Positions 1,413 through 32,628 of a DNA stretch of 43,674 nt are shown one piece after another. A model generated the notes under the pieces. The model searched no databases and was not told where the DNA came from. It was given only the letters and a program-made list of their open reading frames with translations. Every line of letters begins with the position of its first letter. Within the stretch, counting starts at the first letter, position 1. This stretch comes from a virus. The DNA is taken from the IMG/VR virus record IMGVR_UViG_3300045738_000450, positions 1 through 43,674 of that record. One strand, given 5' to 3'. A program made the translations under genes and the position numbers.

Positions 1413-2381
1413 CTATCCATACGCTGGAGCAGGCGTTTCCGGGTCACTCTCTGGCACAACTCCAGAGGCGCGGCCGTAAACAACCAAATCGCATATCTCC
1501 GACTCAACATACTCACCGTCATCGGCCTTAATGTAGAAAGTACATGTTCTTGGACTGCTGGCAGACGATTCGTCTCCAGTTCGATGAACAAGCCCAACGT
1601 ACACTTGGCTGAAATCTGATCCCGCAGTAATACTTCCTCCTGTATGTCTACCCATAGCGTGTCCTAGGGCTACATAACTGTTGTTGTCGAAAATGCCAGA
1701 GGCAAAGGTTACTTTAAACTTGCCTATTGATTCTCTTTCTAGCTTAGAGATATTGAAGGATTCATTAACTGTGGGAGTCCACTCAGTACCAGAGATCACG
1801 TTCCCGCTGCTATTAAAATTAATCCAAGCCTTAGCAACACTCTTGGCCGATCTAATTACCGAGGAGTCGGATTCAAACACCATCTGGCCAAGGCCAAGTA
1901 TGTGCAGGTCTTCCCTGTTGTCATTAATGTATAGGAATTTTACGCCTCTTCCTGTATCTCCAGACGCCCCGATGAAATTGTCGGCCATCCTGAGGTTGCC
2001 AGCCATTTCCCTAGATCCGTCAATTGCCAGATATTGTGTGTGGGCGATGTTGCTAGAGTTTCTACCAGCTAAATCGTTATGATTTATACCTTGTGGGCCC
2101 GGATATGGGACATATTGAATACCGCCACCATTAACAAAATTAATGCCAGATTCAGGGATGAACATCCCGCCAGTGTTAGTTGTGGCGTTTCTGTCAGCCC
2201 GTACATCATTAACAAAAGCCCAAGAAGTGTCAAAATCACCGCTTGAAACGATTAAATTAATAGACTCGACAATATCTTCTAGGTTATGCCTAACGTCTTG
2301 TGCAGAAATTAATCCAGCGTTGTTGTCTGCTAGCTCGCTAGAAATAGTAGATAACAAATCGCCTGTATTTTTGATTGTCAT
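1413..2381 (-). CDS. Fibre-associated virion protein (322 aa)
   Basis: The first 45 residues (D-N-N-A-G-L-I-S-A-Q-D-V-R-H-N-L) closely resemble the start of the 1567-aa fibre (I-S-P-Y-D-V-R-H-N-L-L-D). The two proteins therefore share an N-terminal module, probably for docking onto the virion. A Gly/Asn/Ser-rich middle and a beta-rich C-terminal 120 residues (KFKVTFASGIFDNNSYVALG) suggest a small terminal domain. It sits 33 bp upstream of the next fibre gene in the same direction, consistent with one late operon. A fibre or adaptor role is inferred; the exact role is not visible. Confidence 0.7.
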   Translation of the reverse strand: MTIKNTGDLLSTISSELADNNAGLISAQDVRHNLEDIVESINLIVSSGDFDTSWAFVNDVRADRNATTNTGGMFIPESGINFVNGGGIQYVPYPGPQGINHNDLAGRNSSNIAHTQYLAIDGSREMAGNLRMADNFIGASGDTGRGVKFLYINDNREDLHILGLGQMVFESDSSVIRSAKSVAKAWINFNSSGNVISGTEWTPTVNESFNISKLERESIGKFKVTFASGIFDNNSYVALGHAMGRHTGGSITAGSDFSQVYVGLVHRTGDESSASSPRTCTFYIKADDGEYVESEICDLVVYGRASGVVPESDPETPAPAYG

Positions 2382-2394: not shown

Positions 2395-2910
2395 TTAGTA
2401 TAAATATCCACCTGACCTGTGATCCCCGCCATTTCTGGATACAAAGTCGCTTCCGGGACTGTAGGGCCCAAGTATTGATGTGCCTGCTATGCTGTTACCA
2501 GCTCGATAGTTAAGTAATGTGTGTTCATATTTTTCGCATAAATCTTGGTGCAATACCACCAACGTGGACGTAACGCCTCGCAAATCAATGGCAGAAGGCC
2601 CGTCTTTAATGGATATCGCATTTCCCGACTCGCTTCTTATTTCGCTACCGACAATAATACAAGCTGACTTAAGGCAAACCAAGTTTATAAATGCGTCATC
2701 CCTAGTGTCCGTGTCTGTTGGATCTGGAGAGAGTGCACAACTCTCTACATTTATGGTATAAGTGTTGCCCAAGTCTACCTCTAGGGTAACTAATTGGGCT
2801 GCTACTAGCAGGGTTGTTTCAATCCTGTGGTCGCTATAGGTATATTTTGTGGAGTCTATATCGTTTATGATATATCTAAGTATTGTTGACATTTGACCTT
2901 GCCAAGACAT
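2395..2910 (-). CDS. Small virion protein, possibly head-tail connector-like (171 aa)
   Basis: Not firmly recognised. The N-terminal half (ILRYIINDIDSTKYTYSD, then a Leu/Ala-rich helix) has the pattern of phage gp6-type connector proteins. The middle (DDAFINLVCLKSACII) is another probable helix, followed by SIKDGPSAIDLRG and a further helix. There are many Cys residues for a virion protein. It lies between small structural genes with a 10-bp gap, so co-expression in the late operon is likely. The connector idea is inference from length and helix layout; a structural protein of unknown role is the safe reading. Confidence 0.6.
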   Translation of the reverse strand: MSWQGQMSTILRYIINDIDSTKYTYSDHRIETTLLVAAQLVTLEVDLGNTYTINVESCALSPDPTDTDTRDDAFINLVCLKSACIIVGSEIRSESGNAISIKDGPSAIDLRGVTSTLVVLHQDLCEKYEHTLLNYRAGNSIAGTSILGPYSPGSDFVSRNGGDHRSGGYLY

Positions 2911-2920: not shown

Positions 2921-3232
2921 TTATAGGTTACAGTGCACCTTGAAAGTATGAATATCTGTATAATATGTCCCACTTGTCAAGGTTACTTTGCCTTGGAGCT
3001 TATAGTTCCCTACTTCATCTAGATCACCGTCCACGGAATCGTAATACATAACCCCTGAAGTTGAGCTACCATCACCAATCTTAGACCCTGTTCTGTTAAT
3101 AATCGTGTCGCTGGGTTTTCTGAAGTCTATCTGCAACGCTGACGCGCTAGACAAATCGACAGTGGACGTGCCATCTTTGACCGTTACTAAAAATCTTGTG
3201 CCAATATCATCTACATGTATTTCGCTAGCCAT
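2921..3232 (-). CDS. Ig-like/BppU-N-type baseplate or fibre accessory domain (103 aa)
   Basis: The pattern fits a single beta-sandwich domain seen in phage baseplate upper proteins: an opening strand, V-K-D-G-T-S-T-V-D-L-S, then I-D-F-R-K-P, then a hydrophobic YYDSVDGDLDEVGNYKLQGK stretch, and a final HTFKVHCNL strand. The length of 103 aa equals about one such domain. It lies among fibre genes. The assignment rests on pattern, not on a search. Confidence 0.55.
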   Translation of the reverse strand: MASEIHVDDIGTRFLVTVKDGTSTVDLSSASALQIDFRKPSDTIINRTGSKIGDGSSTSGVMYYDSVDGDLDEVGNYKLQGKVTLTSGTYYTDIHTFKVHCNL

Positions 3233-3512: not shown

Positions 3513-3854
3513 TTATGCTTCCGGGTCAGAAATGGCAACGTTGGTGTCTACCGCAGCGGCGGCAGCTTCCTTGGCTTGGTTTAGTTCATATGCAATCACA
3601 TGATCCGATAAAAATCCTCTAACCTTGCCGTGCGTAAAATCTCCTTGAGACTCTGGATTTTCTAATATTTCCGGTATTTCTACACCATTCTCGTCAACCA
3701 CCGGTAGGATAGGCGTACCATCCTCCTCGTTGAACGTCTGCGCAAGCGAATACAGGGGGTTAGCAAGCTCAGATTGCCAGCCATAATTGCTACAAACAGC
3801 GTCAAACACTCTTTGAACATCTGCGTCTGCTATTTCTAGCTGAAAAATCGCCAT
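3513..3854 (-). CDS. Small helical virion-associated protein (113 aa)
   Basis: Unrecognised function. It opens with a short strand (IFQLEIADADVQRVFDAVC) and closes with an Ala-rich helix (AYELNQAKEAAAAAVDTNVA); a proline-rich loop lies between. Proteins of this shape are common beside tail fibre genes in environmental phages. The gene begins a transcription unit: a late-promoter-like motif lies about 42 bp upstream, and a GAGGAG-type ribosome-binding site (complement of ctcctc near 3862) precedes the ATG. Confidence 0.6.
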   Translation of the reverse strand: MAIFQLEIADADVQRVFDAVCSNYGWQSELANPLYSLAQTFNEEDGTPILPVVDENGVEIPEILENPESQGDFTHGKVRGFLSDHVIAYELNQAKEAAAAAVDTNVAISDPEA

Positions 3855-3904: not shown

Positions 3905-3926
3905 TAATTTTTTAAGGTGGTTTGTT

Positions 3927-4514
3927 TTATATCTTCTCTACCATGTCGTATCCAAACGTTTTACAGTCTGGTTCTGCCCACGTTTTATTAACATGGTCTA
4001 GTACCCTTGGGTTGTAGTACCACTCCCCGACCACAATTGGGTCATGATATCTTGCAGGAAGGCTTATCTCTTCACCAACCGCTGCTGAAAGTTCATCTTC
4101 TAGGTTTTCGTATCTAATCAAGCTAAACTCAGTTAGCCCTGCGGATACGACAAAATCTGTGATAGTCTTGTTAAACATCCAGTTTAGCTTTTGTCTATTA
4201 TAAACAAACTCTTCCCAGCACAGATATTTATCTGCCAAGCCCTTGTACTGTGACCACTCATAGTGTAAAAACAATCCAGCAAGCCTAGTGTAAGGATCTC
4301 TACACACAAGGTAAACTTTAAGTTCCTCTCCAATGGTTTCTCTTCTTTTCCATGAGCTGTGTAGTTTTGCGCAGTGGTGGTTAATAGATTCCGCATCGAA
4401 TGGGTCTGGGCCTATTACCCAATATGCTTCGGAACCAAGTCCTTTATGTATGTTTCCACTCGCTGTGTGCGGAGGGGTTATAATTGCAATATTTTTGTCG
4501 GAGAAATAAATCAT
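3927..4514 (-). CDS. Sulfotransferase-like protein
   Basis: Probably transfers sulfate from PAPS to a glycan or other acceptor. Seen: an N-terminal strand-loop I-A-I-I-T-P-P-H-T-A-S-G-N-I-H, in the place of the 5'-phosphosulfate-binding loop, and a segment Y-L-V-C-R-D-P-Y-T-R-L-A-G-L-F about 60 residues later that matches the 3'-phosphate motif (R-D-P-Y-x-R-L). The length (195 aa) is short for the family. The start at 4514 makes an ATGA overlap with the methyltransferase stop; an ATG at 4529 would overlap more and lacks a better ribosome site. The loop lacks the usual Lys (PPHTASG rather than PKTGT), so activity is uncertain. It is the last gene of a three-enzyme island. Confidence 0.7.
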   Translation of the reverse strand: MIYFSDKNIAIITPPHTASGNIHKGLGSEAYWVIGPDPFDAESINHHCAKLHSSWKRRETIGEELKVYLVCRDPYTRLAGLFLHYEWSQYKGLADKYLCWEEFVYNRQKLNWMFNKTITDFVVSAGLTEFSLIRYENLEDELSAAVGEEISLPARYHDPIVVGEWYYNPRVLDHVNKTWAEPDCKTFGYDMVEKI

Positions 4515-5086
4515 AATACTTTGGTACAATATGTAGGAAATATTTCTTTTGATATAGATATCATTTCTATGTCTTTATTTTGTATCCTTTCAGTTACGGC
4601 ACGTATTACAGAGCTTCCCCACACCGTTGTATTAACCACATAATCATGCCCCATTATATGGCCACCAGACTTAACCTTCAGAATTGACATCTCTAATTCG
4701 CGGCTTACATTTTGATAGTGATGATCGGAATCTAGATAAACCCAATCAAGCACATTGTCAGGCAATGAATTAAGAAAAGTCAAGCTTCTTTGTTTATGCA
4801 ACACCACCTTTTCTCTCTCTATCTCGTCTCGAAAAATATTAGAAACATAATCAAAATGATCTCCAAACCACAGATTAGGATCTTCTATGTGATGATTTCT
4901 GGCAGTTTCTTCCCATGTGTCAACAAGAAATAAAAGAGAGGGTTTAGTCCTAAAAAACAATTGAACGGCATTTACCCCTTTGCAAACTCCAAGTTCAGCA
5001 CCCACCCCGCCCCTTGGGATAGTTCCATAAATATCTTCTTTGCTGTCTAGGTCTTTTATCTTGTGTTCGTCGTTTTCGTAAACCAT
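4511..5086 (-). CDS. Class I SAM-dependent methyltransferase (191 aa)
   Basis: Motif I is A-E-L-G-V-C-K-G (residues 30-37). The acidic ribose-binding residue follows strand 2 (F-L-V-D-T-W, D56), and a post-motif DWVYLDSDHHYQNV (about 114-127) resembles the TylF/Methyltransf_24 group, which often acts on sugars or small molecules. The start codon directly follows the stop of the phosphoribosyltransferase-HAD gene, and the stop overlaps the sulfotransferase start, so the three are translationally coupled. The substrate is unknown; sugar O-methylation is an inference. Confidence 0.75.
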   Translation of the reverse strand: MVYENDEHKIKDLDSKEDIYGTIPRGGVGAELGVCKGVNAVQLFFRTKPSLLFLVDTWEETARNHHIEDPNLWFGDHFDYVSNIFRDEIEREKVVLHKQRSLTFLNSLPDNVLDWVYLDSDHHYQNVSRELEMSILKVKSGGHIMGHDYVVNTTVWGSSVIRAVTERIQNKDIEMISISKEIFPTYCTKVL

Positions 5087-6106
5087 TTATCCAAAACTTC
5101 CTTGATTAGGACATATAACAATTTTGTTGGTTGCCTTTCGTATTAGTGTGGCTTCTGCCGGACTACTTTCAACAAAAAATATGGCATCTGACTTTTCATA
5201 AAATTCAGCCTTATATCTAGATGCCTGAGCTACATGATTGGCGTTTCGGATGTGGGCGTCCTCTGTAGGGTACATTGTTAAGGATTTGTATTTTACCCCA
5301 TATCTATCCAGCCATTCTTCCGTTATCTCCCTGTCCTTTTCGAGTCTTGCGGTCACTATTCCTTGACAACAATGAGTAACCGGAAGTCTGTGATATATTG
5401 GTTGAACAGTTGATAGATATTCTATGCGTTCTTTCTCGGTGTTAAAAATTCGGTCAGGGTCTGGGCATAATATTCCATCTAAATCAAGCAAGCATTTTTT
5501 TATATGCTCGCTATTAAAAAAATGCCAATCTAATATGTGTGGATCTTCAAGCTCCATGCCAAAAACATCAACTTCTTTTATTGAAGAAGGCTTTACATAA
5601 ACAGCACCATATAAACAATCAGATCCCAGCCGTTCTTTTATTTTCCTGATAGAGTCTCCTGAAAAAACAGTGTCGTCTATGACGGCTATTTTTCCATTTG
5701 ATATTTTATGATTCCGCATTCTATATCCGCCGCACTCAGAAGCAGCAGACGCTAACTCTAGGTTGTTATTAATTATGTTATATATTGGGACATTAAGCGA
5801 GGTGGCACAAACCCCAGCGGTTATATAGCCAGACCTTGGCACTGCTGCCACACCAGAAATTTTTTTATCGTAAAGCTTTGGTATTAAATAATTCCTGCAA
5901 TCATCCACCATGTCTGACGCTGTTATAAATTTACCACCCACCCCAGAACAAAGCCTGCGGGCATGCTTTTTGTCACAATCTATCTTATACTGAGCCCTTT
6001 CCTCCGGGGTGGCATTTTGACACCATTGCCAGTTGGGAGGATCATATGTCATCTCCTGTTTGAAAAACTCACAAAATCCTGATTGCATACATTTGCATTT
6101 TTCCAT
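5087..6106 (-). CDS. Phosphoribosyltransferase-HAD hydrolase fusion (339 aa)
   Basis: Two enzyme domains. The N-terminal part is Cys-rich to residue 53. A type I phosphoribosyltransferase follows, with A-V-P-R-S-G (88-93) and the PRPP loop A-V-I-D-D-T-V-F-S-G-D-S (141-152). From residue 205 an HAD-fold domain begins with L-L-D-L-D-G-I-L; D208 and D210 are the expected catalytic aspartates, and a T-A-R-L-E-K motif lies near 253. The pair could make or recycle a nucleotide or phosphosugar; substrates are unknown. It heads a coupled trio with the methyltransferase and sulfotransferase, placed between fibre genes. The region looks richer in A+T than its fibre neighbours, suggesting acquisition. 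Confidence 0.75.
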   Translation of the reverse strand: MEKCKCMQSGFCEFFKQEMTYDPPNWQWCQNATPEERAQYKIDCDKKHARRLCSGVGGKFITASDMVDDCRNYLIPKLYDKKISGVAAVPRSGYITAGVCATSLNVPIYNIINNNLELASAASECGGYRMRNHKISNGKIAVIDDTVFSGDSIRKIKERLGSDCLYGAVYVKPSSIKEVDVFGMELEDPHILDWHFFNSEHIKKCLLDLDGILCPDPDRIFNTEKERIEYLSTVQPIYHRLPVTHCCQGIVTARLEKDREITEEWLDRYGVKYKSLTMYPTEDAHIRNANHVAQASRYKAEFYEKSDAIFFVESSPAEATLIRKATNKIVICPNQGSFG

Positions 6107-6111
6107 ACCCC

Positions 6112-6480
6112 CTACTCCACGAACATCTCAAACGCTGCACCCAAATCTCTTGTAAATGTGTGTGGGGAGTTTTCGGGCGAGCCTGAACTTCCTTCTCCTG
6201 AATTTAAATCACACGGAGAAGCGTCTCCTTCGTCCCCATCGTCGGTAATATATTTAACAGTAAGTGTATCACTATCTGTAATTCCAATTACTTGGTAGGT
6301 GTAGGTTGAGATAATTTCCCCTTCGCTGTCTCCCGCGTCTCGATGCTCTACTGTAACCCAGTCTCCAACCTGAACAAGCACCGTTGCCGAAGTTCCATAA
6401 TTTACTGTGTAACTAGGGCCAGAACCGGAACAGTTGGTCACCGCAATGTTACTTAATACTGTTATCGTGTTCCTTGCCAT
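6112..6480 (-). CDS. Beta-rich virion accessory protein (122 aa)
   Basis: Unrecognised. Its ATG overlaps the stop of the 2162-aa fibre by one base (TAATG), so it is translationally coupled to the fibre and may be a chaperone or a separate fibre tip. The sequence is Thr/Ser/Val-rich with strands such as VLVQVGDWVTVEHRD and TYTYQVIGITDSDTLTVKY, then an acidic Gly/Ser loop and a short helical tail. No enzymatic motif is seen. Confidence 0.55.
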   Translation of the reverse strand: MARNTITVLSNIAVTNCSGSGPSYTVNYGTSATVLVQVGDWVTVEHRDAGDSEGEIISTYTYQVIGITDSDTLTVKYITDDGDEGDASPCDLNSGEGSSGSPENSPHTFTRDLGAAFEMFVE

Positions 6481-9400
6481 TAGTCCGGTATGTCCTGACC
6501 TATAATAAATCCATCAAACTTGGTGTCATTTGCACTGCCGCCAGTGGCCGTACACAGAAATCCATATACGTCTTTGTGTCCTCTGTGGGTTTGGTCGTCT
6601 ATTCCGGTCATGGTGGGAGTTACACTTCCCGCCCACTTTAGTTCAGCAGCGGTACTTCCGTCAATTCTAACGGTACTCCAGCTTATGCTGTAGCCATCGG
6701 TTGCACCAATCACCTGAACAAACCGAACAATAAATCTTTGTCCTATTGTAGCGTTTGTAAATTCTACCGCCGAGACATCAGCACCTAATAGAACGTTAAA
6801 GTAATTTCCAAGACTTAAATCCAAGGTCACAGTAGCATCTTCTGTTGTGGTTCCTGTGGCTGGTACTGGCTGGTTAACATAAGCACCGCCCACCAAATGA
6901 AGCCTGTCCTCATCCTCGTCCCATAGTAAGTAAGAACCAGTAGTATCACCAAAGAATTTTACATCGTGACCTGTGCCATTGACGCCAACGGTGAGGGTTC
7001 CAATTATAGTTGCCGCACTTCCGTCAAAAGTAAAGTTAGCCTCGGCGTTCATGGCGTCGGTGCCAGTCGCCGTTAAAACGTAATTATTAGCACCGTTTGT
7101 CATAAAGTCTGAAACATCAACTGATATAGCATCTGCCGCCACATCAATACCTGTTCCTTCACCAATATTCAGAGTTACATCGCCGGTCGTTCCTCCATCT
7201 GTTAAGCCAGCACCAGCAACTACTGAGGTTATATCGCCAGCACCGCCAGCCCAGTTTGTATCTCCATAGGCTTTAATTGCGGCACCATCTGGTAAATTAG
7301 CACCGTCAGTTAGGGTGTCTTCGGCAGCCCTCGTTGCGGCAGAACCTAATTCTAAATTAGTTCTAGCGTCTCCAGCAGAAGAAGCTCCCGTACCACCATG
7401 AGCAACGGCTACGTCTGTAGCGGCCCAAGTGCCAGTACCAATAGTTCCCACAGTAAGAATGCTAGAACTACCAGCGATAACACCCTTGGTCTCCACGGCT
7501 GTTTCTAGGGCTTGTATGGAAGCTTTAATCGTTTGGTTATCTGAAATAGTACTTCCGGTAAAGGTTCCAAGATGCTCACTAGTATCGGCAGCAGCCCCAA
7601 CCAAAGTAAATAGATGATCTAAATCAAAGTCGGCTTTAGCGTAGGTTGTATCAGTGGCAGCAATAGTAATAGCACCGTCGCCATTGGTGATGCTGATATT
7701 GCTACCAGCAGTCAAAGTGGCGTTGTCCCATACCGACGCCGTATTGTCATAAATAATTAGATGGCCAGCGGCAGGAGATGATATGTTCGTGTCGTTTAAC
7801 TCTACAAGAGTATCTTCGCTAGCTACAGCGGTGTTAATTCTGTCATCAATAGCAGCAGAAGTCATCAGACTGGTATCGTTGTCTGTAAAAGATTCGCCGG
7901 ATGTTTGAATAGCATCAGCGTGCAACTGAGAGAACGTAATGTTGGCGAGGGTGCCGCCAAGCGTTATCGTTCCAGTGCTAGTAATAGCGCCGCCCGTTAA
8001 AGTAATACCATTAACAGTGCCAGCGGTAGCAACAGATGTCACAGTACCAGCAGTAGTAGAATAACTATATGCTTCAATTTTGTCTGCGATGGCAGCAGAT
8101 GTCATAAGTGACGTATCGTTGTCACTAAATGAGCTTGCGGCTTTTTGGACTGTTGTTATGCCGACAGTGCTAGATGTGGACTCGTCAAAAGTCCATGTAC
8201 CAGTTGTAGTAAAGCCACCAGCAGTAATAGTGCCAGTGGTGGTGTCACTAGCGTCGTTCTTTAAGAAGGCATCATCGACATTAAATGTTGTGCCGGATAA
8301 GGTTAGATTTGTTCCGCCGGTATAGGTTGTATTGGTATCAGTAACTGTACTTGAAATAGTAACAGTTCCGTCTGCTGTTGTTGCGCAGGTAATGCCAGTA
8401 CCTGCTGCGAAAAACAAGTCATCGCCTTGCGTTATAGTTGTAGCAGTAGTATCAGTTGTTGCTGATACTGTAAACCCACTGCCCATGGTGTTAGTGTCAG
8501 TTGGAGTTACCCAAGAATTGTCTCCTCTTAAGAAAGTTGAACTTGACGCAGTTCCTGTTGCTGACAACATAGCAATATCAACAGCATCTGTTGCAATAGT
8601 AAGAGCAGTACTGCCTGTTACATCGCCTGTGTGTGTGGCATTGGTTACTTTAGCTGTGTTGGCTACAACAGCCGTTTCTAAGTTAGCTACATTCGGAATT
8701 GCAACTGTGCCTGTAAATGTTGGGCTAGCAATTGGTGCCTTGGTTCCTAATGCAGTTGTTATTGTGCCTGCATAACTTGCATCATCATTTATTGCTGCTG
8801 CCAATTCATTTAGGGTGTCTAATGCTCCCGGCGCACCACCAATCAATGCATCTATAGCTGCTTGTACACCTGCTGGTGTAACGGCCCTAGCTGTGTCAGT
8901 TCCTGTAGTTGTTTCTCCGGTTGTAGCTAACTCGACACCACCAACCACTGTAACAGAGGCACTTGGTAGAGTATAAACTGTATCTGTATAGTTGCCCGCA
9001 TGTATTGTTCCGACACTAGCAGTCCAGTCAAGATGTTCGTTTTCAACAAATCCACTGAGGCTGTCGTGAACAATGTCGCCATCAGTAGTAGAAAGAGTAT
9101 CTCCAGTGAGAGTGATACCAGTACCAGCAGCTAAGTTTGTATTGGAGCTTATGTCAACAGTTCCAATATTTGCATAAGTGATTCCTAAATTGGTTCTAGC
9201 ATTAGCGGCGGTTGAAGCACCAGTACCGCCATGAGCGACTGCAACATCTGTAGCTTCCCATATGCCTGTTGCAATAGTTCCTACAGTAACAATACTAGAG
9301 CTTCCAGCAGTAACGCCTTTAGTTTCTACAGCCGTTTCTAACGCCTGCAATGCCGCTTTGATTGTCACGCTGTCTGAGATGGTGCTGCCAGTAAACGTTC

Positions 9401-12400
9401 CAAGATGTTCACTAGTGTCAGCAGCAGCGTCTACCAAGGTAAACAGGTGGTCTAAGTCAAAAGACGCCTTAGTGTATGTTGTATTAGTATCCGTAGAAGC
9501 AATTGTTCCTCCTGCGGAGATAGTTACATTAGTACCAGCAGTTAAAGCGGCCACTACATTAGTAGAGTCGGTTACATCAGCAAGTGCTTCAATGGCATTT
9601 AATTTAGAATGGTCATCATTAGTAAAATCATTAGTTGTTAAACCACCATCACCTACCGAATAAGTTGTGTCAGTAGCTGTAACGGTTAAAGTATCGCCAG
9701 CCATAGCAGTAGTGACATTAGTCCCACCAGCTATCGTAAGGGTATCTCCCGGAGTTATTCCTGTAGAGCCGCTATCTCCATCTACTGTTGTATCTGCAAC
9801 AACGAAATCTATATCATGCGTGCTGTCTTGATAAGTAACAGTAATACCAGTTTCTGTACCACCCAGCATTCCACCCACGAAGTCTTCTACTTGTTCTTCA
9901 GTAAGAGTGGCGGATATGTATCCAGCGCTTCCATGATCGCCCCACCCGTAGGCTGTGTCCCACTGGCCGACCTTGGCATCAGTAATGGTGTAAGTACCCA
10001 TGTCAATGATTTGGCTGTTGGCGTCAAGGGTGCCACCTAGCTGAGGGGTTGTATCCTCAACGACGTTAGACATACTACCCCCACCAGCGGCCTCAACCCA
10101 AGTAAAGCCCGGCCCACCAGCAGTATAAGATAAGAGGTAGTTGTCAGTGGGGCCATTGGTTACGTTTAAATGAGCTTCATCAATCGACCCATCTACATAA
10201 TTATCTGAATCTATCTTCTCGTCTGCTATGGTAGCAGTTAAGGTGGCGTTTCCAAGGGTACTAAGCGTGCAGTTGCCTGTTAAGTCTCCACCTAAAGTTA
10301 TTACTGGGGATTTGTTGACCGTGACGGCAGAAGCTATGTCGCCAGTGTCGATATTAGCATTGGTCATTGCTTGACTGTTGCAATCCATAGCTCCAGCAAG
10401 CTGGCTAATTGTTACTGAGCCAATTGTTCCGCCAGTGACTTGATCTCCACTGATTGCGTCCGCGCTGACTTGAGCAACTATCTCGTCAGCCGTTATCGAC
10501 TTACCCAAGAAAACTCCAGATCCCGCTATCGTAACGCCACTTGACGCCAGCTTAGTTATTGGTATCTGAGCAGAGTCTATAACAAAGTTGTCGTAATCCA
10601 GATAATAGGAACCTTGTTGTCCATCTAGTTTGTCCGCATCAAGACTAGTGCCAGCCCCGTCTACAGTTAGCAGCTTTGAAAGAACGTCGGCGGCTGTGTA
10701 GGACGAACTGGCAAGTTTAGCGTCAAGCTGTGTCTGTATGTTGGAACTGACGTTGTTCAGCCATCCAAACTCCGTGTTGCTAATGGTGCCGTCATGTACA
10801 AGGTTGGCATTGAGCCTGTTGGACGAATCAATGGTATCATGTTTAGCAGCTATCATGTCTCCAAGGGTGCCTGATATAGCATACCCCGAAGCGGCTGCTT
10901 CTAGGCGGACTGCCGCTGTTAAGTCTACGTTTGCGCTTCCGTTAAACCCGTGATCTGTGCTTCCTACCGTAAAGTTTCTAGAAGTGGTTAGGGTTGCAGC
11001 GCTACCAGTGGTGCTTTGGTTTAGAGTACCAATAGAAACATTAATTTCTGTATCTGGAGTTTCCGCCACGCTAAACTGAGATGAGAAATCTAAAGTAACT
11101 ATATCCGCACCGCCAACCTGAGAACCATTAGCCTTAACGGTGGTCATGCTACCTCCGCCACCCCCGGACGCTTGGTATATTAAGCCGTGCGGAGATCCTG
11201 AAACAACGTATAGGTCGTTAGCTAAGGCTCCCGACGCCGTTGTCAGGTCTGTAGACGAGGCCTTTGTGGCAATTGAGTTAGTCACAGTCGTGGAGAAGGC
11301 CTCGTCGTCTCCGAGGGCTTCTGCTAATTCATTAAGCGTGTCTAGCGCACTAGGGGCTGAGGCAATAAGATTAGTTACTTCAGTCCTAACGAAAGACGTT
11401 GTGGCTAACTGTGTAGTGTTTGTTAAGGCCGCAGCCGTTGGGGCCGCTGGAGTACCCGTAAAGGTCGGGCTGGCAATATTAGACTTAAGTGCTATCATGT
11501 CGGACAGCGTTCCCGACTGGGTAATCATCAGTCCACCAACGCCAGATACTGCGTGCAGGTCGGACGCCAGTGCCCCAGAAGCGGTAGCGATATCAGTTGC
11601 GTTGGTTGTTATGTCTCCCCTCAACGCTCCCGATGCGGTGACTAGATCGGTGGAGTTAGTTGTAATGTCTGCCCTTAATGCGCCAGAAGCTATTGCTATA
11701 TTGGGAGCAGAAAAGACGGTTCCATCAAGACTAACGCCGTTACTAGCTGTGTACGTTGTGTCCGTAGACGTTATGGTTAATATGCCATACGTGTTATCAT
11801 AGGAAGTTGAGACGTTTGTCCCACCGGCAAATTTGATCGTTCTTCCGTCGTAAACAATGAAGGGCCCAGAGGAATCATCATTAAGCTTCCAAGATGTGAA
11901 GGCTCCTCCTGAAGCACTTGTTAGGCCAATTACGTGGCCGTTGGAATCTAATGTCAAATCTTGTATAAATGTGTAATCTGAGTTGTCTGCGCTGTCTCCC
12001 GCTGAGATTGTGGGGTGTACGACTATATATCCAGCGTCGTTAGTTAGCAAGCTAACATTATCTCCAGCCGACAAGGTTGACGCAGTTGTCTGCGTGGTTC
12101 CGTCTGGAAACTGGAACGAGGTGCCGCTAATTGAACCTACGTTGCTGACCTTTGCTACTATTGTTTCAGCGCTGTCTTGCCACTGTTGCAGGTTAGCGGA
12201 CTGTGCTGCTGCGCCCCTAACAGTCAACGTTGGGGTGGAGGCTTTCCCGTCTTTGAAGATTGAGCCATCAGACTTATCTACATTAAACACGGTGGCGGAT
12301 TCATGCTGAACCCAAAACCCGTTATTTGTGTTTATGTACATGGCGTTGTTGGCGTCGGCAAAAGCTCCGGCAGACCCATTTTCACCAAAGACGTAACCAT

Positions 12401-12968
12401 AAGAAGGAGCCGCCGTGGTAGAGGCGGGTGAGTCCTTAACACCAAGCCTCCACTGTGGGCTGATTTCATCCTCAAGGTGGAGAGCTACCGTTCTGTCGTT
12501 TGTGTTATCCACATAGTAATGGAAGAATACTCCAGCGTTGTTCCTCCGCATCGTAGCGGGCGCTGCGCCATCGGTTGCCGAGGTTGCCTGAATGGTTCCA
12601 TCAGGAAAAGCCACTCCGGCGTAGGAGGCGGGTATGCCGCTGGCATAGCCTTCTGGAGTTATGAAGACAGCTTTTGATCCGGGCTGAGTAACAAATACGG
12701 TAGATACTCCAGTCAGCGTTATCTTAGAGCCGCTATTGCTGCTACTCAAAACCGTATCTCTGCTCAGGGTGTTGTCAGCAGAGGTGTAGGTTCCCACTCC
12801 TACTTCGTAGTTTCCATCAGAAGTCTCTATACCATAGAAGGTAGAGTTATTGTTTCCAATTGCCAGAGCAAAGGTGGTGAATCCGCCAAAGGTGCCGCCA
12901 AGAACAACGTCTGCTGTTCCTGTGGTTATGGTTGTTTCTTTTACTCTGTCTGATAATATAAACGCCAT
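6480..12968 (-). CDS. Giant repetitive tail fibre (2162 aa)
   Basis: The N-terminus (LSDRVKETTITTG) is shared with the fibre at the left edge. The body is Gly/Thr/Ser/Asp-rich beta repeats typical of phage fibres: repeated S-G-A-L units near residues 420-480, V-A-H-G-G-T-G-A-S motifs (two), D-N-D-T-S-L-M-T-S-A-A-I (two), and S-P-T-F-T-G-T (two). A block of about 100 residues is duplicated at roughly 1160-1265 and 1770-1875 (F-D-L-D-H-L-F-T-L-V ... A-R-T-N-L). The C-terminal 200 residues are less repetitive (RFIVRFVQVIGATDGYSISW) and may be the tip domain. It is probably a trimeric receptor-binding fibre. No protease or lyase motif was seen. Confidence 0.85.
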   Translation of the reverse strand: MAFILSDRVKETTITTGTADVVLGGTFGGFTTFALAIGNNNSTFYGIETSDGNYEVGVGTYTSADNTLSRDTVLSSSNSGSKITLTGVSTVFVTQPGSKAVFITPEGYASGIPASYAGVAFPDGTIQATSATDGAAPATMRRNNAGVFFHYYVDNTNDRTVALHLEDEISPQWRLGVKDSPASTTAAPSYGYVFGENGSAGAFADANNAMYINTNNGFWVQHESATVFNVDKSDGSIFKDGKASTPTLTVRGAAAQSANLQQWQDSAETIVAKVSNVGSISGTSFQFPDGTTQTTASTLSAGDNVSLLTNDAGYIVVHPTISAGDSADNSDYTFIQDLTLDSNGHVIGLTSASGGAFTSWKLNDDSSGPFIVYDGRTIKFAGGTNVSTSYDNTYGILTITSTDTTYTASNGVSLDGTVFSAPNIAIASGALRADITTNSTDLVTASGALRGDITTNATDIATASGALASDLHAVSGVGGLMITQSGTLSDMIALKSNIASPTFTGTPAAPTAAALTNTTQLATTSFVRTEVTNLIASAPSALDTLNELAEALGDDEAFSTTVTNSIATKASSTDLTTASGALANDLYVVSGSPHGLIYQASGGGGGSMTTVKANGSQVGGADIVTLDFSSQFSVAETPDTEINVSIGTLNQSTTGSAATLTTSRNFTVGSTDHGFNGSANVDLTAAVRLEAAASGYAISGTLGDMIAAKHDTIDSSNRLNANLVHDGTISNTEFGWLNNVSSNIQTQLDAKLASSSYTAADVLSKLLTVDGAGTSLDADKLDGQQGSYYLDYDNFVIDSAQIPITKLASSGVTIAGSGVFLGKSITADEIVAQVSADAISGDQVTGGTIGSVTISQLAGAMDCNSQAMTNANIDTGDIASAVTVNKSPVITLGGDLTGNCTLSTLGNATLTATIADEKIDSDNYVDGSIDEAHLNVTNGPTDNYLLSYTAGGPGFTWVEAAGGGSMSNVVEDTTPQLGGTLDANSQIIDMGTYTITDAKVGQWDTAYGWGDHGSAGYISATLTEEQVEDFVGGMLGGTETGITVTYQDSTHDIDFVVADTTVDGDSGSTGITPGDTLTIAGGTNVTTAMAGDTLTVTATDTTYSVGDGGLTTNDFTNDDHSKLNAIEALADVTDSTNVVAALTAGTNVTISAGGTIASTDTNTTYTKASFDLDHLFTLVDAAADTSEHLGTFTGSTISDSVTIKAALQALETAVETKGVTAGSSSIVTVGTIATGIWEATDVAVAHGGTGASTAANARTNLGITYANIGTVDISSNTNLAAGTGITLTGDTLSTTDGDIVHDSLSGFVENEHLDWTASVGTIHAGNYTDTVYTLPSASVTVVGGVELATTGETTTGTDTARAVTPAGVQAAIDALIGGAPGALDTLNELAAAINDDASYAGTITTALGTKAPIASPTFTGTVAIPNVANLETAVVANTAKVTNATHTGDVTGSTALTIATDAVDIAMLSATGTASSSTFLRGDNSWVTPTDTNTMGSGFTVSATTDTTATTITQGDDLFFAAGTGITCATTADGTVTISSTVTDTNTTYTGGTNLTLSGTTFNVDDAFLKNDASDTTTGTITAGGFTTTGTWTFDESTSSTVGITTVQKAASSFSDNDTSLMTSAAIADKIEAYSYSTTAGTVTSVATAGTVNGITLTGGAITSTGTITLGGTLANITFSQLHADAIQTSGESFTDNDTSLMTSAAIDDRINTAVASEDTLVELNDTNISSPAAGHLIIYDNTASVWDNATLTAGSNISITNGDGAITIAATDTTYAKADFDLDHLFTLVGAAADTSEHLGTFTGSTISDNQTIKASIQALETAVETKGVIAGSSSILTVGTIGTGTWAATDVAVAHGGTGASSAGDARTNLELGSAATRAAEDTLTDGANLPDGAAIKAYGDTNWAGGAGDITSVVAGAGLTDGGTTGDVTLNIGEGTGIDVAADAISVDVSDFMTNGANNYVLTATGTDAMNAEANFTFDGSAATIIGTLTVGVNGTGHDVKFFGDTTGSYLLWDEDEDRLHLVGGAYVNQPVPATGTTTEDATVTLDLSLGNYFNVLLGADVSAVEFTNATIGQRFIVRFVQVIGATDGYSISWSTVRIDGSTAAELKWAGSVTPTMTGIDDQTHRGHKDVYGFLCTATGGSANDTKFDGFIIGQDIPD

Positions 12969-26264: not shown

Positions 26265-26509
26265 TCCGCCGTGGCTTTAATTACTCTTATGTCGGATTTG
26301 ATCTCCTTGCAAAATAGCCTTGCCTCCTCTGTGTCGTCTTGTTTTAATATCATGCGAAGAAGATTGTGAACCGCCTTGAAGCATGCTTCGTCTGGATCTT
26401 TAGCTTCTACGAAAACTATTGGTCGCTCGCTATTATATTCGTATATTTTGTATTTGGAAAGACTGGCTATTACTAGCGTTAAGTCCATATTAACTTTGTA
26501 TAGTTTCAT
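26261..26509 (-). CDS. Hypothetical protein (82 aa)
   Basis: Not recognised. Pattern: N-terminal strand (M-K-L-Y-K-V), then a possible ferredoxin-like strand/helix order with F-V-E-A-K-D-P-D-E-A-C-F-K-A and a charged C-terminus. The start at 26509 overlaps the dehydratase stop by 20 bases; an ATG at 26488 just after that stop is an alternative. Its stop overlaps the HNH start, so it is co-translated with the nuclease. Confidence 0.6.
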   Translation of the reverse strand: MKLYKVNMDLTLVIASLSKYKIYEYNSERPIVFVEAKDPDEACFKAVHNLLRMILKQDDTEEARLFCKEIKSDIRVIKATAE

Positions 26510-27593
26510 TTGTATCGTTCTTCATCATAATGTTTACTAGGCCTTGTAAGTCCGTTTTTGGCTCCCACCCAAGCTTTTCTTTCGCTTTGGAAAACCTTCC
26601 TTTTAGGTAGTTTACTTCTGCCGGTCGGCAGAATTTAGGATCAATCACCACAAAGGGTTCCCAGTCATAAATTCCAACATAATTAAATGCGGCGACCAGA
26701 AATTCTTTAACCGTGCTTGTTTCTCCGGTGCATATAACATAGTCATCCGGTTTCTCCTGCTGCAACATGAGCCACATAGCTTCTACATAATCTCCCGCAT
26801 ATCCCCAATCTCTAAATGCGTCCAAGTTTCCCAGCCGCAGCTTTGGGAATGAGGGTGTTACCTTGCCGTCCGTGTTCATGGCCTTGGGGTGAATGTGAAT
26901 ATTGTCTTCGGAAAACGAAATGGCCGTGAAGTCCTCTGGCATCCGAAACCGAAGCGCGTTGTCCTTCTTCCACTTAATAAAGTCGCCAATCCACTTGGTG
27001 ATTTTCCTAGTTACAAAGGTTTCTCCGCGTCTGGGGCCTTCGTGGTTGAACAGGATTCCGGCGCTGGAGTGAACTCCGTATGCTTCGCGGAACAGTCTTA
27101 CCATATAGTGCGCAGCACATTTCGCTATTGCGTATGGGGACTGAGGGAGGAATTTGGTTTCTTCGTCTTGATACCTTCCGTCCTTATCGACATCGTATGA
27201 GTTTCCAAACATCTCACTTGAAGAAGCTTGATAAAATTTACACCCAAGATTAAGATCCACGATTCCTTGTAAAATATTCAAACATCCCTTCCCCGTAATG
27301 TCCCAAGTTAGGCCGGGTTGCTTGAAGGAGACGCCTACATGCGACTGCGCAGCTAGGTTATAGATTTCATCTACATTGTCGTTATCCCGTAAGATTCTAT
27401 ATACGCTACCAACATCTGTAATGTCTCCCGAAACCATGTCGAGCCTTGGGTTATCTAATAGATGTCTAATTCTCCCGTTTGTGTCAACACTGCTCCGCCT
27501 CGCTACTCCAACTACTTCATAATCTTTTCCTAGAAGGAACTCCGCGAGATGGCTTCCATCCTGTCCGGTGATACCGAATATTATTGCCTTCAT
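26490..27593 (-). CDS. gmd: GDP-mannose 4,6-dehydratase
   Basis: Converts GDP-mannose to GDP-4-keto-6-deoxymannose, the precursor of GDP-fucose, rhamnose or perosamine. Seen: NADP-binding G-I-T-G-Q-D-G at residues 7-13, V-A-R-R-S-S, the S-S-S-E-M-F-G segment with the catalytic Ser/Glu, and S-P-Y-A-I-A-K with catalytic Tyr and Lys, then F-N-H-E-G-P-R-R-G. The start at 27593 is preferred over one at 27608: it has GAGGAGGGAAG just upstream and an ATGA overlap with the HNH stop. Length (367 aa) matches the family. No partner reductase is in the window, so the host or another phage gene must finish the pathway. Confidence 0.92.
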   Translation of the reverse strand: MKAIIFGITGQDGSHLAEFLLGKDYEVVGVARRSSVDTNGRIRHLLDNPRLDMVSGDITDVGSVYRILRDNDNVDEIYNLAAQSHVGVSFKQPGLTWDITGKGCLNILQGIVDLNLGCKFYQASSSEMFGNSYDVDKDGRYQDEETKFLPQSPYAIAKCAAHYMVRLFREAYGVHSSAGILFNHEGPRRGETFVTRKITKWIGDFIKWKKDNALRFRMPEDFTAISFSEDNIHIHPKAMNTDGKVTPSFPKLRLGNLDAFRDWGYAGDYVEAMWLMLQQEKPDDYVICTGETSTVKEFLVAAFNYVGIYDWEPFVVIDPKFCRPAEVNYLKGRFSKAKEKLGWEPKTDLQGLVNIMMKNDTNETIQS

Positions 27594-28150
27594 CTTCCCT
27601 CCTCCCATTTCTTAGATTTCCTCATGTTATCCTCCGCCCAAAGCGGCTGTAAATTCGTATAGTGGAAGCATGTCTTCTGCTGCTCCACATCGGTCAGGTC
27701 AAAGGAATTACATGGCCTAATATGATCTATATGCCACCCCGTAAATTCATAATTGTCCCAACTCATTCCCGGTTTCCATTGTTTCTCTAAACGCTCCATT
27801 AGCTCCTTAGCAGTACAGCCTAAGTATTCAACGGTGGTCAAAGCCTTCTTCTTCCCAGCGTTTTGTATCAATTTGCTCATTCTTCTTGCTTGTGACCTAT
27901 ACACCCTTACGTGGGGGCGATTCCTATACGCTTTCTTATATTCTTTATTGTATTCAGATTGATACTTAATACGCTTCTCTTTATTTTTTTGATAATACGA
28001 TTGACTATAGCTCTTGTCTTCATGATATGCTTCCGAGCAACACGCCCTACATCTTGATTGTTTCCCACTCTTGAGTGAGTTGTTCATAGCAAACTCCTCC
28101 GTCGCCTTCTCTTCTCCACACCTCCCACATTCCTTGGTTCTAGTTTCCAT
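27590..28150 (-). CDS. HNH endonuclease with N-terminal zinc ribbon (186 aa)
   Basis: The N-terminal C-G-R-C ... C-R-A-C zinc-binding pair (C8, C11, C34, C37) is followed by a Tyr/Lys-rich helix, a DNA-contact-type segment, and the nuclease core W-H-I-D-H-I-R-P-C (about 138-146) with N-L-Q-P-L-W-A-E-D-N (about 166-175). This is the layout of free-standing phage homing HNH enzymes. It stands directly upstream of the dehydratase and may have helped carry it into the late operon (inference). Confidence 0.85.
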   Translation of the reverse strand: METRTKECGRCGEEKATEEFAMNNSLKSGKQSRCRACCSEAYHEDKSYSQSYYQKNKEKRIKYQSEYNKEYKKAYRNRPHVRVYRSQARRMSKLIQNAGKKKALTTVEYLGCTAKELMERLEKQWKPGMSWDNYEFTGWHIDHIRPCNSFDLTDVEQQKTCFHYTNLQPLWAEDNMRKSKKWEEGR

Positions 28151-29424: not shown

Positions 29425-30215
29425 TACTCCTCCTCTTCTGAAAAGGAGAGGGTTTTCCATGATGTTCCATCGTAAAACTCAAGAGAGTGGGTTTCAGTGT
29501 TATATATGATGGTGCCTTGTTGCGCTGGCGGCTTTTCGTCGCTTGTGTAGTGGTCGGGCATTAGGCGAATATAGGGAGCAGACACAAAAGAGTTTTTGCG
29601 AGATAGGTCTAGTCTTCTTGTCTTTAGGGTTAATTGTTTTTGTGCCTTTTGGAGTGAGTCAATCAGCGCTTCGTCAAAATCAATTATTTCCCTGAGTTCT
29701 TGCTTGTCAATAGATTGAACAATATCGTCTTTTCTTCCTAAGAGGGTGTTTTCCTCAAGTGTTACGGGCGAGGGGCACCGTGATTCAATTGATGCTAGGA
29801 CAGAATATGGGGGCGCTAGTGCTTCGCTGAGAGAGAGAGGAAGCGTAGAATAAACCCGGAGATAGCTATCTGGACTAAACTTTACGGGTTTTTGGCCAAT
29901 TCTGTAGAGATTATCATCATCTGGGGTTCCAAATGAGAGAGGAAGGTCTCTCTGTAAGAAGGTTTCTCCATCACTGTCGTATATGAAGCCTATTCCGCGT
30001 TCATATTTTATGACAAAGCCCCCTGAAACCTCTTGTAAGAGGTACAGGAACCTATGATCGTAGCCAATTACGTTTTTTATCAGGGAGTCTTCAGAAGCAT
30101 CGTCTATATTGTAGTCGTTGTTGTCTTCCAGTACTTTGTAGCCACCCAAGCGAACAGTCTGGCGGTCTACTGGCAGCGCACCCTCGAACGCTCCCTGTTT
30201 AAATTTATTCTGCAT
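29424..30215 (-). CDS. Virion-like protein of unknown role (263 aa)
   Basis: Not firmly recognised. The C-terminus (GTIIYNTETHSLEFYDGTSW) is the G-T-I-x-Y-N-T ... Y-D-G-T-S-W motif found in phage structural and fibre proteins. The N-terminal half is beta-rich and includes GFVIKYERGIGFIYDSDGE; a helical segment lies at about 165-190. It overlaps the 50-aa gene by 11 bases and the sigma gene by one, so it is part of the first late cistrons. Confidence 0.6.
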   Translation of the reverse strand: MQNKFKQGAFEGALPVDRQTVRLGGYKVLEDNNDYNIDDASEDSLIKNVIGYDHRFLYLLQEVSGGFVIKYERGIGFIYDSDGETFLQRDLPLSFGTPDDDNLYRIGQKPVKFSPDSYLRVYSTLPLSLSEALAPPYSVLASIESRCPSPVTLEENTLLGRKDDIVQSIDKQELREIIDFDEALIDSLQKAQKQLTLKTRRLDLSRKNSFVSAPYIRLMPDHYTSDEKPPAQQGTIIYNTETHSLEFYDGTSWKTLSFSEEEE

Positions 30216-30357
30216 CCGCTTCAGCTTCTTTCTCGGCCAGAAGCTCTGCCAAGCTCTTATCTTCAGCCTCTAGATCTTCCAGTACTTCTTCTTCCAACTC
30301 AGCGGCAGCTTTACAGCTCATCTTAGAGGATATTTTGTGACTTTTCTTCTCTTTCAT
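30205..30357 (-). CDS. Small acidic helical protein (50 aa), first gene of late operon
   Basis: Frame starts at ATG 30357 and ends at TAA 30205. It begins basic (M-K-E-K-K-S-H-K) and then is almost entirely Glu/Ala/Leu (AELEEEVLEDLEAEDKSLAE), so a single charged helix. It overlaps the next gene by 11 bases, which indicates coupling. A late-promoter motif lies 44 bp upstream. Function unknown. Confidence 0.55.
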   Translation of the reverse strand: MKEKKSHKISSKMSCKAAAELEEEVLEDLEAEDKSLAELLAEKEAEADAE

Positions 30358-30400
30358 TGCTATGTGCCCCAATCCGATTGTTTTACTAGTAGTCTAACTG

Positions 30401-30413
30401 TATTATTATACAC
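30401..30413 (-). promoter_or_regulatory. Candidate late promoter for the main leftward operon
   Basis: The minus strand reads GTGTATAATAATA, 44 bp upstream of the first leftward gene. It is the best example of the late motif and faces away from the rightward small-gene region. Confidence 0.6.
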
Positions 30414-30582
30414 CCTAAATCAGTAAAAAGCACAAATTAGTGGCAGAAAGCAGGCGAAAGGCGCTAAGGGGGAGGTTTGGGTAATACATATGTTTGGATG
30501 AGTTCGGGTTGCGTTTGAAGCACCCCGGAATAAACAGCATAAGCAAGTAGTCTTTATTCTGAAGATAAAAGTGGGTGGGTCT

Positions 30583-30638
30583 GGGGTGATTTTCTAGGGG
30601 GTGATTTTCTGATCAGAAAAACAGGGGGGCGATTTTCT
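30583..30638. repeat. Three direct repeats and palindrome in divergent control region
   Basis: GGGGTGATTTTCT occurs at 30583-30595 and 30598-30610 and as GGGGCGATTTTCT at 30626-30638. A palindrome TTTTCTGATCAGAAAA (30605-30620) overlaps the second copy. The array lies 33 bp upstream of the first rightward promoter and about 170 bp from the leftward one. The 30358-30744 stretch has no gene. Likely a regulator-binding array. Confidence 0.6.
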
Positions 30639-30670
30639 GGCTTTTTTTTGATTTTTTCTCAAGATTGCTA

Positions 30671-30699
30671 TTGACAAATGACGATAATATATATATACT
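30671..30699 (+). promoter_or_regulatory. Sigma-70 promoter, first rightward gene
   Basis: TTGACA (30671-30676), 17-bp spacer containing ACGATAAT, TATACT (30694-30699). The expected start site falls on the ATG at 30706. Confidence 0.85.
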
Positions 30700-30744
30700 A
30701 AGAGCATGACAAACAACAACAACAACAACAACAAGGAAAACAAA

Positions 30745-30891
30745 ATGTCAAACTTAGATAAACTTATCAATTACTTCATGCTTCGCGGACATAGCTGGAT
30801 TAACAGCGTTAAACTTGCTAAGTCTACATTGACTATCATTGAGAATGGTGATACTCTACGACTAAGAGCATCTAGTACACGCGATGCCTAA
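30745..30891 (+). CDS. Small paralogous protein A1 (48 aa)
   Basis: Unrecognised. ATG 30745 is preceded by AAGGAAAACAAA. Sequence pattern SNLDKLINYFMLRGHSWINS, then V-K-L-A-K-S-T-L, then R-L-R-A. The next gene is a clear tandem paralogue with the same frame of conserved residues. An in-frame ATG at 30706, at the predicted transcription start, would add 13 residues (M-T-N then six more Asn, K-E-N-K). Likely an early host-takeover peptide (inference). Confidence 0.7.
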   Translation: MSNLDKLINYFMLRGHSWINSVKLAKSTLTIIENGDTLRLRASSTRDA

Positions 30892-30922
30892 CAAATAACT
30901 TCACAAAATAGCCGTATTGCTA

Positions 30923-30951
30923 TTGACACAACATCCAATATAGTATATAAT
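30923..30951 (+). promoter_or_regulatory. Sigma-70 promoter
   Basis: TTGACA (30923-30928), 17 bp, TATAAT (30946-30951). The ATG at 30958 is 7 nt after the -10 box. Preceded by ACTTCACAAAATAGCCG, also found before the promoter at 32629. Confidence 0.9.
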
Positions 30952-30996
30952 ACAACCATGACAAACAACAATAACAATACTCGAAAGGTAAACTCA

Positions 30997-31143
30997 ATGT
31001 CAAACTTAGATAAACTTATTAATACTTTTATGAAACGTGGACATAGCTGGTCTGAAAGCGTTCGGCTTGCTAAGAGTACTTTACAGATTTGCGAGAGTGG
31101 TCATACTGTACGACTAAGAGCATTCGTGAGAGTTGACGACTAA
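30997..31143 (+). CDS. Small paralogous protein A2 (48 aa)
   Basis: Tandem paralogue of the protein at 30745: same M-S-N-L-D-K-L-I-N start, R-G-H-S-W, L-A-K-S-T-L and R-L-R-A. ATG 30997 follows CGAAAGGTAAACTCA. An in-frame ATG at 30958 (39 nt upstream, at the transcription start) would add M-T-N-N-N-N-N-T-R-K-V-N-S. Function unknown; duplication with divergence suggests selection. Confidence 0.7.
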   Translation: MSNLDKLINTFMKRGHSWSESVRLAKSTLQICESGHTVRLRAFVRVDD

Positions 31144-31156
31144 GCTATATCGCCGT

Positions 31157-31248
31157 TCAACTGGAGTCGCAAGACTAGGTTTAAGAGACACTGAATGAAC
31201 TACTACTCAACTGGAGTCGAGAGACTAGGTTTAAGAGATACTGAATGA
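31157..31248 (+). repeat. Two copies of 42-bp repeat
   Basis: Two direct copies, 31157-31198 and 31207-31248, beginning TCAACTGGAGTCG and ending ACTGAATGA, with about 93% identity. A related pair with the core TTAAGAG...ACTGAA is at 36416-36492. They lie just downstream of the second gene and upstream of a hairpin element. Function unknown; perhaps 3' end signals. Confidence 0.75.
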
Positions 31249-31254
31249 GTGGCG

Positions 31255-31330
31255 AAAAAAGGCCGGGGCGTTTTTCTCCGTAAGTCCTTTGATAGCAATG
31301 GGTTACAACTACTTTCCCTTTTTTCTATTT
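31255..31330 (+). terminator. Double-hairpin intergenic element, copy 1
   Basis: AAAAAAGGCCGGGGCG then a T5 loop and CTCCG, followed by a second hairpin (GTAAGTCCTTT ... GGTTAC, weak here) and a T-rich tract ACTTTCCCTTTTTTC. A promoter follows at once. Same order as copies at 32200, 36983, 37992 and 43512. Confidence 0.55.
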
Positions 31331-31346
31331 TATGTGGAGATAGGGG

Positions 31347-31375
31347 TTGACAAATGCCGATAATATAAGTATAAT
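31347..31375 (+). promoter_or_regulatory. Sigma-70 promoter with conserved spacer
   Basis: TTGACA (31347-31352), 17-bp spacer with ATGCCGATAAT, TATAAT (31370-31375). ATG at 31382, 7 nt after the -10. Confidence 0.9.
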
Positions 31376-31399
31376 GGGAGCATGACAAGGAAAGACATA

Positions 31400-31519
31400 A
31401 TGAACATCAAAGCATTTCTAAACTACATCAACTATAGCACTGTTTGCCCTAGCAGGATTCATCCTATGCGATGGAATGCCATGCTCATCATGGCTAAGAA
31501 AATGGGATATATTTCCTAA
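31400..31519 (+). CDS. Small hypothetical protein (39 aa)
   Basis: ATG 31400 follows AAGGAAAGACATA; an in-frame ATG at 31382 on the predicted start site would add M-T-R-K-D-I. The product starts N-I-K-A-F-L-N-Y-I-N-Y and is Met-rich with several basic residues. Unrecognised. It stands alone between two promoters. Confidence 0.5.
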   Translation: MNIKAFLNYINYSTVCPSRIHPMRWNAMLIMAKKMGYIS

Positions 31520-31536
31520 TAATGCCCTGATTGGGC

Positions 31537-31565
31537 TTGACAAATTGGTCAACTTAGTATATAAT
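31537..31565 (+). promoter_or_regulatory. Sigma-70 promoter
   Basis: TTGACA (31537-31542), 17 bp ending in CAACTTAGTA, TATAAT (31560-31565). ATG at 31572, 7 nt after the -10. Spacer of the second class (CCAACTTAGT type). Confidence 0.88.
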
Positions 31566-31607
31566 ACAAGCATGAAAAACAAAAACACTTTAACGAAAGA
31601 AAAGAAA

Positions 31608-31940: not shown

Positions 31941-31941
31941 T

Positions 31942-31992
31942 ATGGGTTTACTGTTTGCTGTTACTGTTATCGTGTTGGCTATCTTAGATTAG
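31942..31992 (+). CDS. Possible 16-aa hydrophobic peptide
   Basis: ATG 31942 begins 1 nt after the upstream TGA and encodes M-G-L-L-F-A-V-T-V-I-V-L-A-I-L-D, a perfect membrane-helix composition. There is only a weak GGTGG ribosome site. Other genes nearby encode similar single-helix peptides, which supports it. Low confidence because of length. Confidence 0.3.
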   Translation: MGLLFAVTVIVLAILD

Positions 31993-32001
31993 GAAAACGA
32001 A

Positions 32002-32190: not shown

Positions 32191-32199
32191 GGTGCGTAG

Positions 32200-32272: not shown

Positions 32273-32378
32273 TTTTGACTGGATTTCGACCACCTAAAAC
32301 GCCGATAATATATGTAGAGAGGGAGAGAATAGACAATAAAAAACATGCAAAAAACTTTACAAAATAACGAAACTGCTC

Positions 32379-32617: not shown

Positions 32618-32628
32618 CCGTATTGCTA

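Follow-up and report, generated by a model that had tools for sequence, protein, structure and literature searches.

An exchangeable cassette of predicted glycan-modifying enzymes in the tail-fibre operon of a metagenomic phage group

The window, our term for the entire stretch analysed (43,674 nt of IMG/VR record IMGVR_UViG_3300045738_000450), contains three enzyme genes, adjacent and head to tail on the minus strand, in a slot between tail fibre genes. They encode a fusion of phosphoribosyltransferase (PRTase) and HAD phosphatase domains, here PRT-HAD, a SAM methyltransferase (MTase) and a sulfotransferase (ST). The features of the locus, and one gene farther along the window, are as follows.

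1413..2381, minus strand: 322-aa tail-fibre-like gene (tail fibre PHROG, 5.2e-8)
2395..2910, minus strand: F167, 171 aa, downstream, a position it keeps in 21 of 25 contigs
2921..3232, minus strand: 103-aa gene, downstream, with a weak, sub-threshold BppU_N match
3513..3854, minus strand: F113, 113 aa, downstream of the slot
3927..4514, minus strand: ST, sulfotransferase (ST1 type), 195 aa, overlapping MTase
4511..5086, minus strand: MTase, Methyltransf_24 SAM methyltransferase by Pfam match, 191 aa
5087..6106, minus strand: PRT-HAD, 339 aa, in three parts (Cys-rich module, PRTase, HAD)
6112..6480, minus strand: MARN (a label given here), 122 aa, upstream of PRT-HAD in most related contigs
6480..12968, minus strand: giant tail fibre protein (PHROG match), upstream of the slot
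26490..27608, minus strand: GDP-mannose 4,6-dehydratase-like gene (Pfam, 5.8e-106), near the terminase genes

The stop codon of PRT-HAD directly adjoins the MTase ATG, and MTase shares 4 nt (ATGA) with ST, an arrangement found in all 11 contigs, the window included, where MTase directly precedes ST. The ST start is taken as ATG 4514, which its relative has in common; the TTG at 4529 in the list of open reading frames is not a conserved start. The giant open reading frames upstream (2162 and 1567 aa) are matched by PHROGs of tail fibres and tail spikes (1.4e-33, 4.2e-23). The GC content of the trio is 0.394. Stretches of equal size in the late region have 0.447 (sd 0.027), and 7 of the 533 are equally low; PRT-HAD has a lower GC content than MARN in all 12 related loci compared. 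These results bear out an earlier, sequence-only reading of this DNA, which had described the three genes as translationally coupled, as lying between fibre genes and as apparently more A+T-rich than their neighbours. The right-hand third of the window (30215-43674) holds mainly small open reading frames on both strands. Most related contigs are fragments, and relatives reach 163 kb, so the window (43.7 kb) may be a fragment as well.

PRT-HAD consists of a Cys-rich N-terminal module (residues ~1-50), a type I PRTase domain (~56-190) and a HAD phosphatase domain (~200-335). The matches of both enzymatic domains are weak and fall under curated cut-offs, yet they are consistent. The PRTase domain matches the NCBIfam xanthine PRTase at 1.1e-6, but with 28.3 of 138 bits it lies far under the curated cut-off; a 14-row profile searched against the PDB places it closest to solved purine/xanthine PRTases (1.5e-5). 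The HAD domain matches polynucleotide kinase (phrog_415, 1.8e-6) and, in a PDB profile search, Pnkp1 (0.0059). Among the 25 full-length PRT-HADs of the survey described below, C4, C6, C12 and C29 of the Cys-rich module are invariant and C44 is present in 23. Also invariant are R91-S92-G93, D144-D145-T146, G150, D208, D210, T252, K299 and E313, and as judged from the alignment the PRPP-site and HAD catalytic residues are kept in all 25, the motif that each residue serves being in part our assumption. A difference from xanthine PRTases appears at the second-last Asp of their DDLVDTG loop, which we take to be the catalytic base: the aligned residue in PRT-HADs is Tyr (21), Phe (3) or Ser (1). The Tyr or Phe in 24 of 25 sequences speaks against a purine acceptor, and purine salvage as the main role of PRT-HAD was rejected because this Asp is replaced.

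PRT-HAD is under purifying selection, with dN/dS between 0.035 and 0.10 in the four pairs that gave a value; the ratios are rough, since 6 of the 15 pairs tried gave no dS and several dS values exceed 1. Chance or an annotation artefact as the origin of the trio was rejected, given its occurrence on 25 contigs and this low dN/dS. Hydropathy gave no membrane segment in any of the three proteins. AlphaFold models built from two-row alignments were unusable (mean pLDDT 36.8 for PRT-HAD and 39.9 for ST). A protein search of phage records returned no match for PRT-HAD (from the window and from contig L013) or for ST, and distant matches only, in 31 records, for MTase; viral scans with a single PRT-HAD or MTase sequence found no relative.

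The MTase of the window matches Methyltransf_24 at 4.6e-11 (44 bits against a cut-off of 26.3), as do 12 of 12 homologues, and has a sub-threshold match to rhamnosyl O-methyltransferase/CmcI. It thus belongs with known Methyltransf_24 enzymes by a match above the cut-off, and differs from them in its position in a fibre operon. The ST of the window is short and by itself lies under the Pfam Sulfotransfer_1 cut-off (E 0.15, 11.9 against 22 bits), whereas its homologue in L006, 45% identical, exceeds it (23.1 against 22 bits) and also weakly matches a galactose-3-O-sulfotransferase PHROG (0.0034). Another type, the unrelated ST3 of L014, also exceeds a sulfotransferase cut-off (Sulfotransfer_1/Sulfotransfer_2); hhalign gives a probability of 82% for ST1 with ST3 and 3% for ST1 with ST2. 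The ST2 type is recognised solely by a HIPR-type motif, in 10 contigs, and was rejected as a proven sulfotransferase given this 3% and four members scanned without a Pfam match. Profiles of MTase and ST searched against the PDB yielded nothing usable.

To survey the locus we used profile scans with PRT-HAD and MARN, which yielded 25 contigs with a full-length PRT-HAD, the window counted. Every contig was reached through one of these two patterns, and loci sharing a contig were counted once. Outside the 25 stand L016 and L018, where PRT-HAD is cut at the contig end, and L017, which has a stump. The contigs are partly non-independent, with L033, L034, L035 and L040 being near copies, as are L007 and L008; 24 of the 25 PRT-HAD sequences are distinct. 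PRT-HAD usually occupies the same slot. MARN was recognised upstream in 23 of 25 contigs, the exceptions (L006, L015) being loci that start close to PRT-HAD, and in L005 it is longer and separated from PRT-HAD by another gene. F167 was not recognised downstream in L004, L005, L006 and L037. Seen from MARN, 20 of 25 loci continue into a full-length PRT-HAD, 3 are cut by the contig end, 1 has the stump and 1 (L023) has no PRT-HAD. On L017 the stump, 50 aa of PRT-HAD (541-693), is immediately followed by the downstream structural gene, as if a deletion had removed the cassette. On L023, a related contig of 156.7 kb, a second MARN domain (6740-7336) is fused behind another domain, and the cassette is absent.

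What follows PRT-HAD in the slot falls into six types. MTase plus ST1 occurs in four contigs (the window, L003, L004 and L006, the last also with a radical SAM gene) and MTase plus ST2 in seven; L026 alone has ST4, MTase and a WavE-like transferase. Three contigs combine ST2 with pyruvyltransferase-like and radical SAM genes, eight combine a GT8-like gene and ST3 with a pyruvyltransferase (7) or an epimerase (1, L013), and two have GT2 and a cytidylyltransferase. Representatives of the pyruvyltransferase, radical SAM, cytidylyltransferase, epimerase and WavE genes exceed Pfam cut-offs; the GT8 matches are sub-threshold (0.0018, 0.00049), and "GT2" is a label for a protein without a Pfam match. 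MTase is present in 12 contigs and absent from 13, and an ST-like gene is present in 23 (10 of them by motif only) and absent from 2. The sequence-only reading would have been refuted had the trio been kept together nowhere else, but it does recur: 11 of the 25 contigs have PRT-HAD, MTase and an ST-like gene in succession, and 12 contain a gene of each kind. That reading had also called a sulfating and methylating set in a late fibre operon unusual; sulfation is common within this virus group, 23 of the 25 cassettes having an ST-like gene.

Mapping the six cassette types onto trees shows how they are distributed. On the PRT-HAD tree they require 8 changes, against a minimum of 5 and a shuffled mean of 14.7; on the F167 tree they likewise require 8, against a shuffled mean of 12.3. 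The excess over the minimum indicates that cassette types were exchanged or lost more than once, although they are nonetheless clustered on both trees. Compared with the nearest relative, L003, the window is 55% identical in PRT-HAD, 61% in MTase and 66% in ST, against 90% in two conserved downstream genes, 95% in a capsid-region gene and 87% in the terminase. Ranked by identity, the bottom five among 25 compared genes are endonuclease VII (37%), PRT-HAD, MTase, a 263-aa gene (64%) and ST. With the low dN/dS of PRT-HAD, these comparisons point to fast divergence under constraint.

Several observations connect the slot to glycans. In L005, a GT8-like glycosyltransferase domain forms one protein with PRT-HAD; this domain is 57% identical to the GT8-like protein that L014 encodes separately. 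The Cys-rich module also forms the N terminus of a 634-aa GT8-like protein on L019 (profile E 1.1e-16) and, on two other contigs, of a 373-aa glycosyltransferase-like protein (2e-9); as a control, its profile gave 0 matches at E<1 among 1737 shuffled open reading frames. The 634-aa gene has a Methyltransf_24 gene and a cytidylyltransferase as companions in a second cluster. Because the slot swaps glycan enzymes, because of the GT8-like fusion and because the module is common to glycosyltransferase-like proteins, context gives good support to the proposal that a sugar is made or decorated by the trio. This part of the original suggestion stands; among the possible targets that it had named (fibres, host surface, a nucleotide), fibres fit best and purine-nucleotide synthesis least. 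The GDP-mannose dehydratase-like gene falls marginally short of the NCBIfam gmd cut-off. Of 26 related records, 17 contain a relative of it, 13 with E below 1e-50. It is a possible maker of a sugar donor; we infer its tie to the trio.

Contigs L019 and L055 belong to one SAR202 MAG and carry genes of this virus group, and the terminase of that MAG is 78% identical to that of the window. On L052, a 152-kb SAR202 MAG contig, positions 3916-8411 form a second glycan cluster made up of a Methyltransf_24 gene, a GT8-like protein with the Cys-rich module, DUF6492 and a cytidylyltransferase; an IMG/VR contig of 166.8 kb encodes this GT8-like protein with 100% identity. SAR202 as a proven host was rejected, the link being one of binning only.

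A fusion of PRTase-type and HAD-type domains among glycan enzymes has a bacterial precedent. According to PMC11127046, which describes Kelly 2022, polysaccharides of some bacteria are ribofuranosylated by a gPRT domain that transfers ribose 5-phosphate from PRPP and a HAD-family PRP that dephosphorylates the product, and such PRPP users have to act in the cytoplasm. PRT-HAD resembles these enzymes in having both domains on one chain (by weak matches), the catalytic residues at the level of sequence and a glycan locus; it differs in being viral, in a PRTase domain nearest to xanthine PRTases and in its additional Cys-rich N-terminal module. In the Hib capsule polymerase Bcs3, as described in PMC10299916, the PRTase-like transferase CriT and then the HAD phosphatase CrpP act on PRPP-derived ribose. 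CriT is described there as lacking the vicinal DD pair (it uses D680 and E818) and CrpP as having kept just one Asp of DxD, the first. PRT-HAD differs in possessing DD as well as DxD in all 25 sequences and in lacking a CroT-type domain. Xanthine/purine PRTases (PDB 4trb, 6kp5) do share the type I domain and the DD motif, but PRT-HAD departs from them in its loop residue, in its fusion to HAD and Cys-rich parts, in its glycan context and in falling under the family cut-off. Among the PDB profile matches up to E 10, no gPRT/PRP or Bcs3 molecule was named. In the open-licence PMC literature, nothing was found on phage sulfotransferase combinations, and nothing about this cassette was noticed among the papers listed on phage glycosylation or SAR202 phages.

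On the strength of the two-domain design and the conserved sites, we propose that PRT-HAD is a viral gPRT-PRP-like enzyme, a PRPP-dependent ribofuranosyltransferase working in two steps. The PRTase domain would transfer 5-phosphoribose from PRPP to its acceptor, a sugar (or else a protein), after which the HAD domain would take off the 5'-phosphate. The Methyltransf_24 enzyme would O-methylate the glycan and the sulfotransferase would sulfate it. The predicted donors PRPP, SAM and PAPS are cytoplasmic, the enzymes have no membrane segment and they are encoded and made with the fibres, which makes a fibre protein the likeliest target, perhaps the adjacent MARN, a candidate acceptor with 24% Ser+Thr. 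From this pattern we infer the chemistry and the sequence of its steps, as well as acceptor and target. That the trio is one version of a swappable glycan cassette in a late fibre-operon slot, with ribosylation, methylation and sulfation likeliest on the fibres, is a model in which we place about even confidence.

The same cassette could instead make or modify a glycan of the host surface, for example against superinfection or the trapping of released virions, its place in the fibre operon then reflecting co-inheritance of receptor-binding and receptor-altering functions. Pyruvyltransferase, WavE-like, GT8-like and cytidylyltransferase genes typify cell-surface polysaccharides, and the GDP-mannose dehydratase-like gene is retained in many records. 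However, in the cassettes inspected we recognised neither a flippase nor a polymerase nor a membrane-bound transferase, the trio proteins are not membrane-spanning, and a late fibre operon is late for changing the host surface; we regard this explanation as unlikely, though it is the most serious competitor.

Less probable still is a role of PRT-HAD in RNA processing or in the synthesis of a modified nucleotide or nucleoside-like metabolite, with methyl and sulfate added to that small molecule. The nearest relatives of its PRTase domain are xanthine/purine enzymes, and a HAD domain nearest to polynucleotide kinase phosphatases would equally suit a role in nucleotide or RNA metabolism. Nucleoside-like metabolites have been proposed as the products of PRTase-HAD pairs located near ter genes, which would favour this explanation; no paper on the Ter-type PRTase-HAD was found in the open-licence PMC literature. 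Against it stand the loop Asp of purine-type enzymes, replaced by Tyr or Phe in 24 of 25 sequences, and partners that are glycan enzymes and glycosyltransferase fusions. Finally, it is improbable that PRT-HAD is a former enzyme, now a scaffold or regulator holding modifying enzymes at the fibre: its Cys-rich module could serve docking and, where the TG loop of xanthine PRTases has Thr, PRT-HAD has Gly, Ala, Ser or Lys, but the DD pair, the R-S-G loop and the HAD residues are unchanged in 25 of 25 sequences and dN/dS is low.

Returning to the fibre model, we tentatively extend it, at clearly less than even confidence, to a phage group known from metagenomes that has its own PRPP-dependent ribofuranosyltransferase and whose slot cassettes vary the ribose glycans of the fibres (bearing sulfate, methyl, pyruvyl or other groups), a system of virion-glycan types swapped by recombination. 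If this is true, viruses would have their own enzyme for PRPP-dependent glycan ribosylation, and a xanthine-PRTase-like domain with a Cys-rich module common to glycosyltransferases would be a further architecture for obtaining ribofuranose from PRPP. The cassette would offer a defined, testable gene set. Phage fibres would then bear a built-in, swappable glycan code, with a bearing on host recognition and on the diversification of environmental phages.
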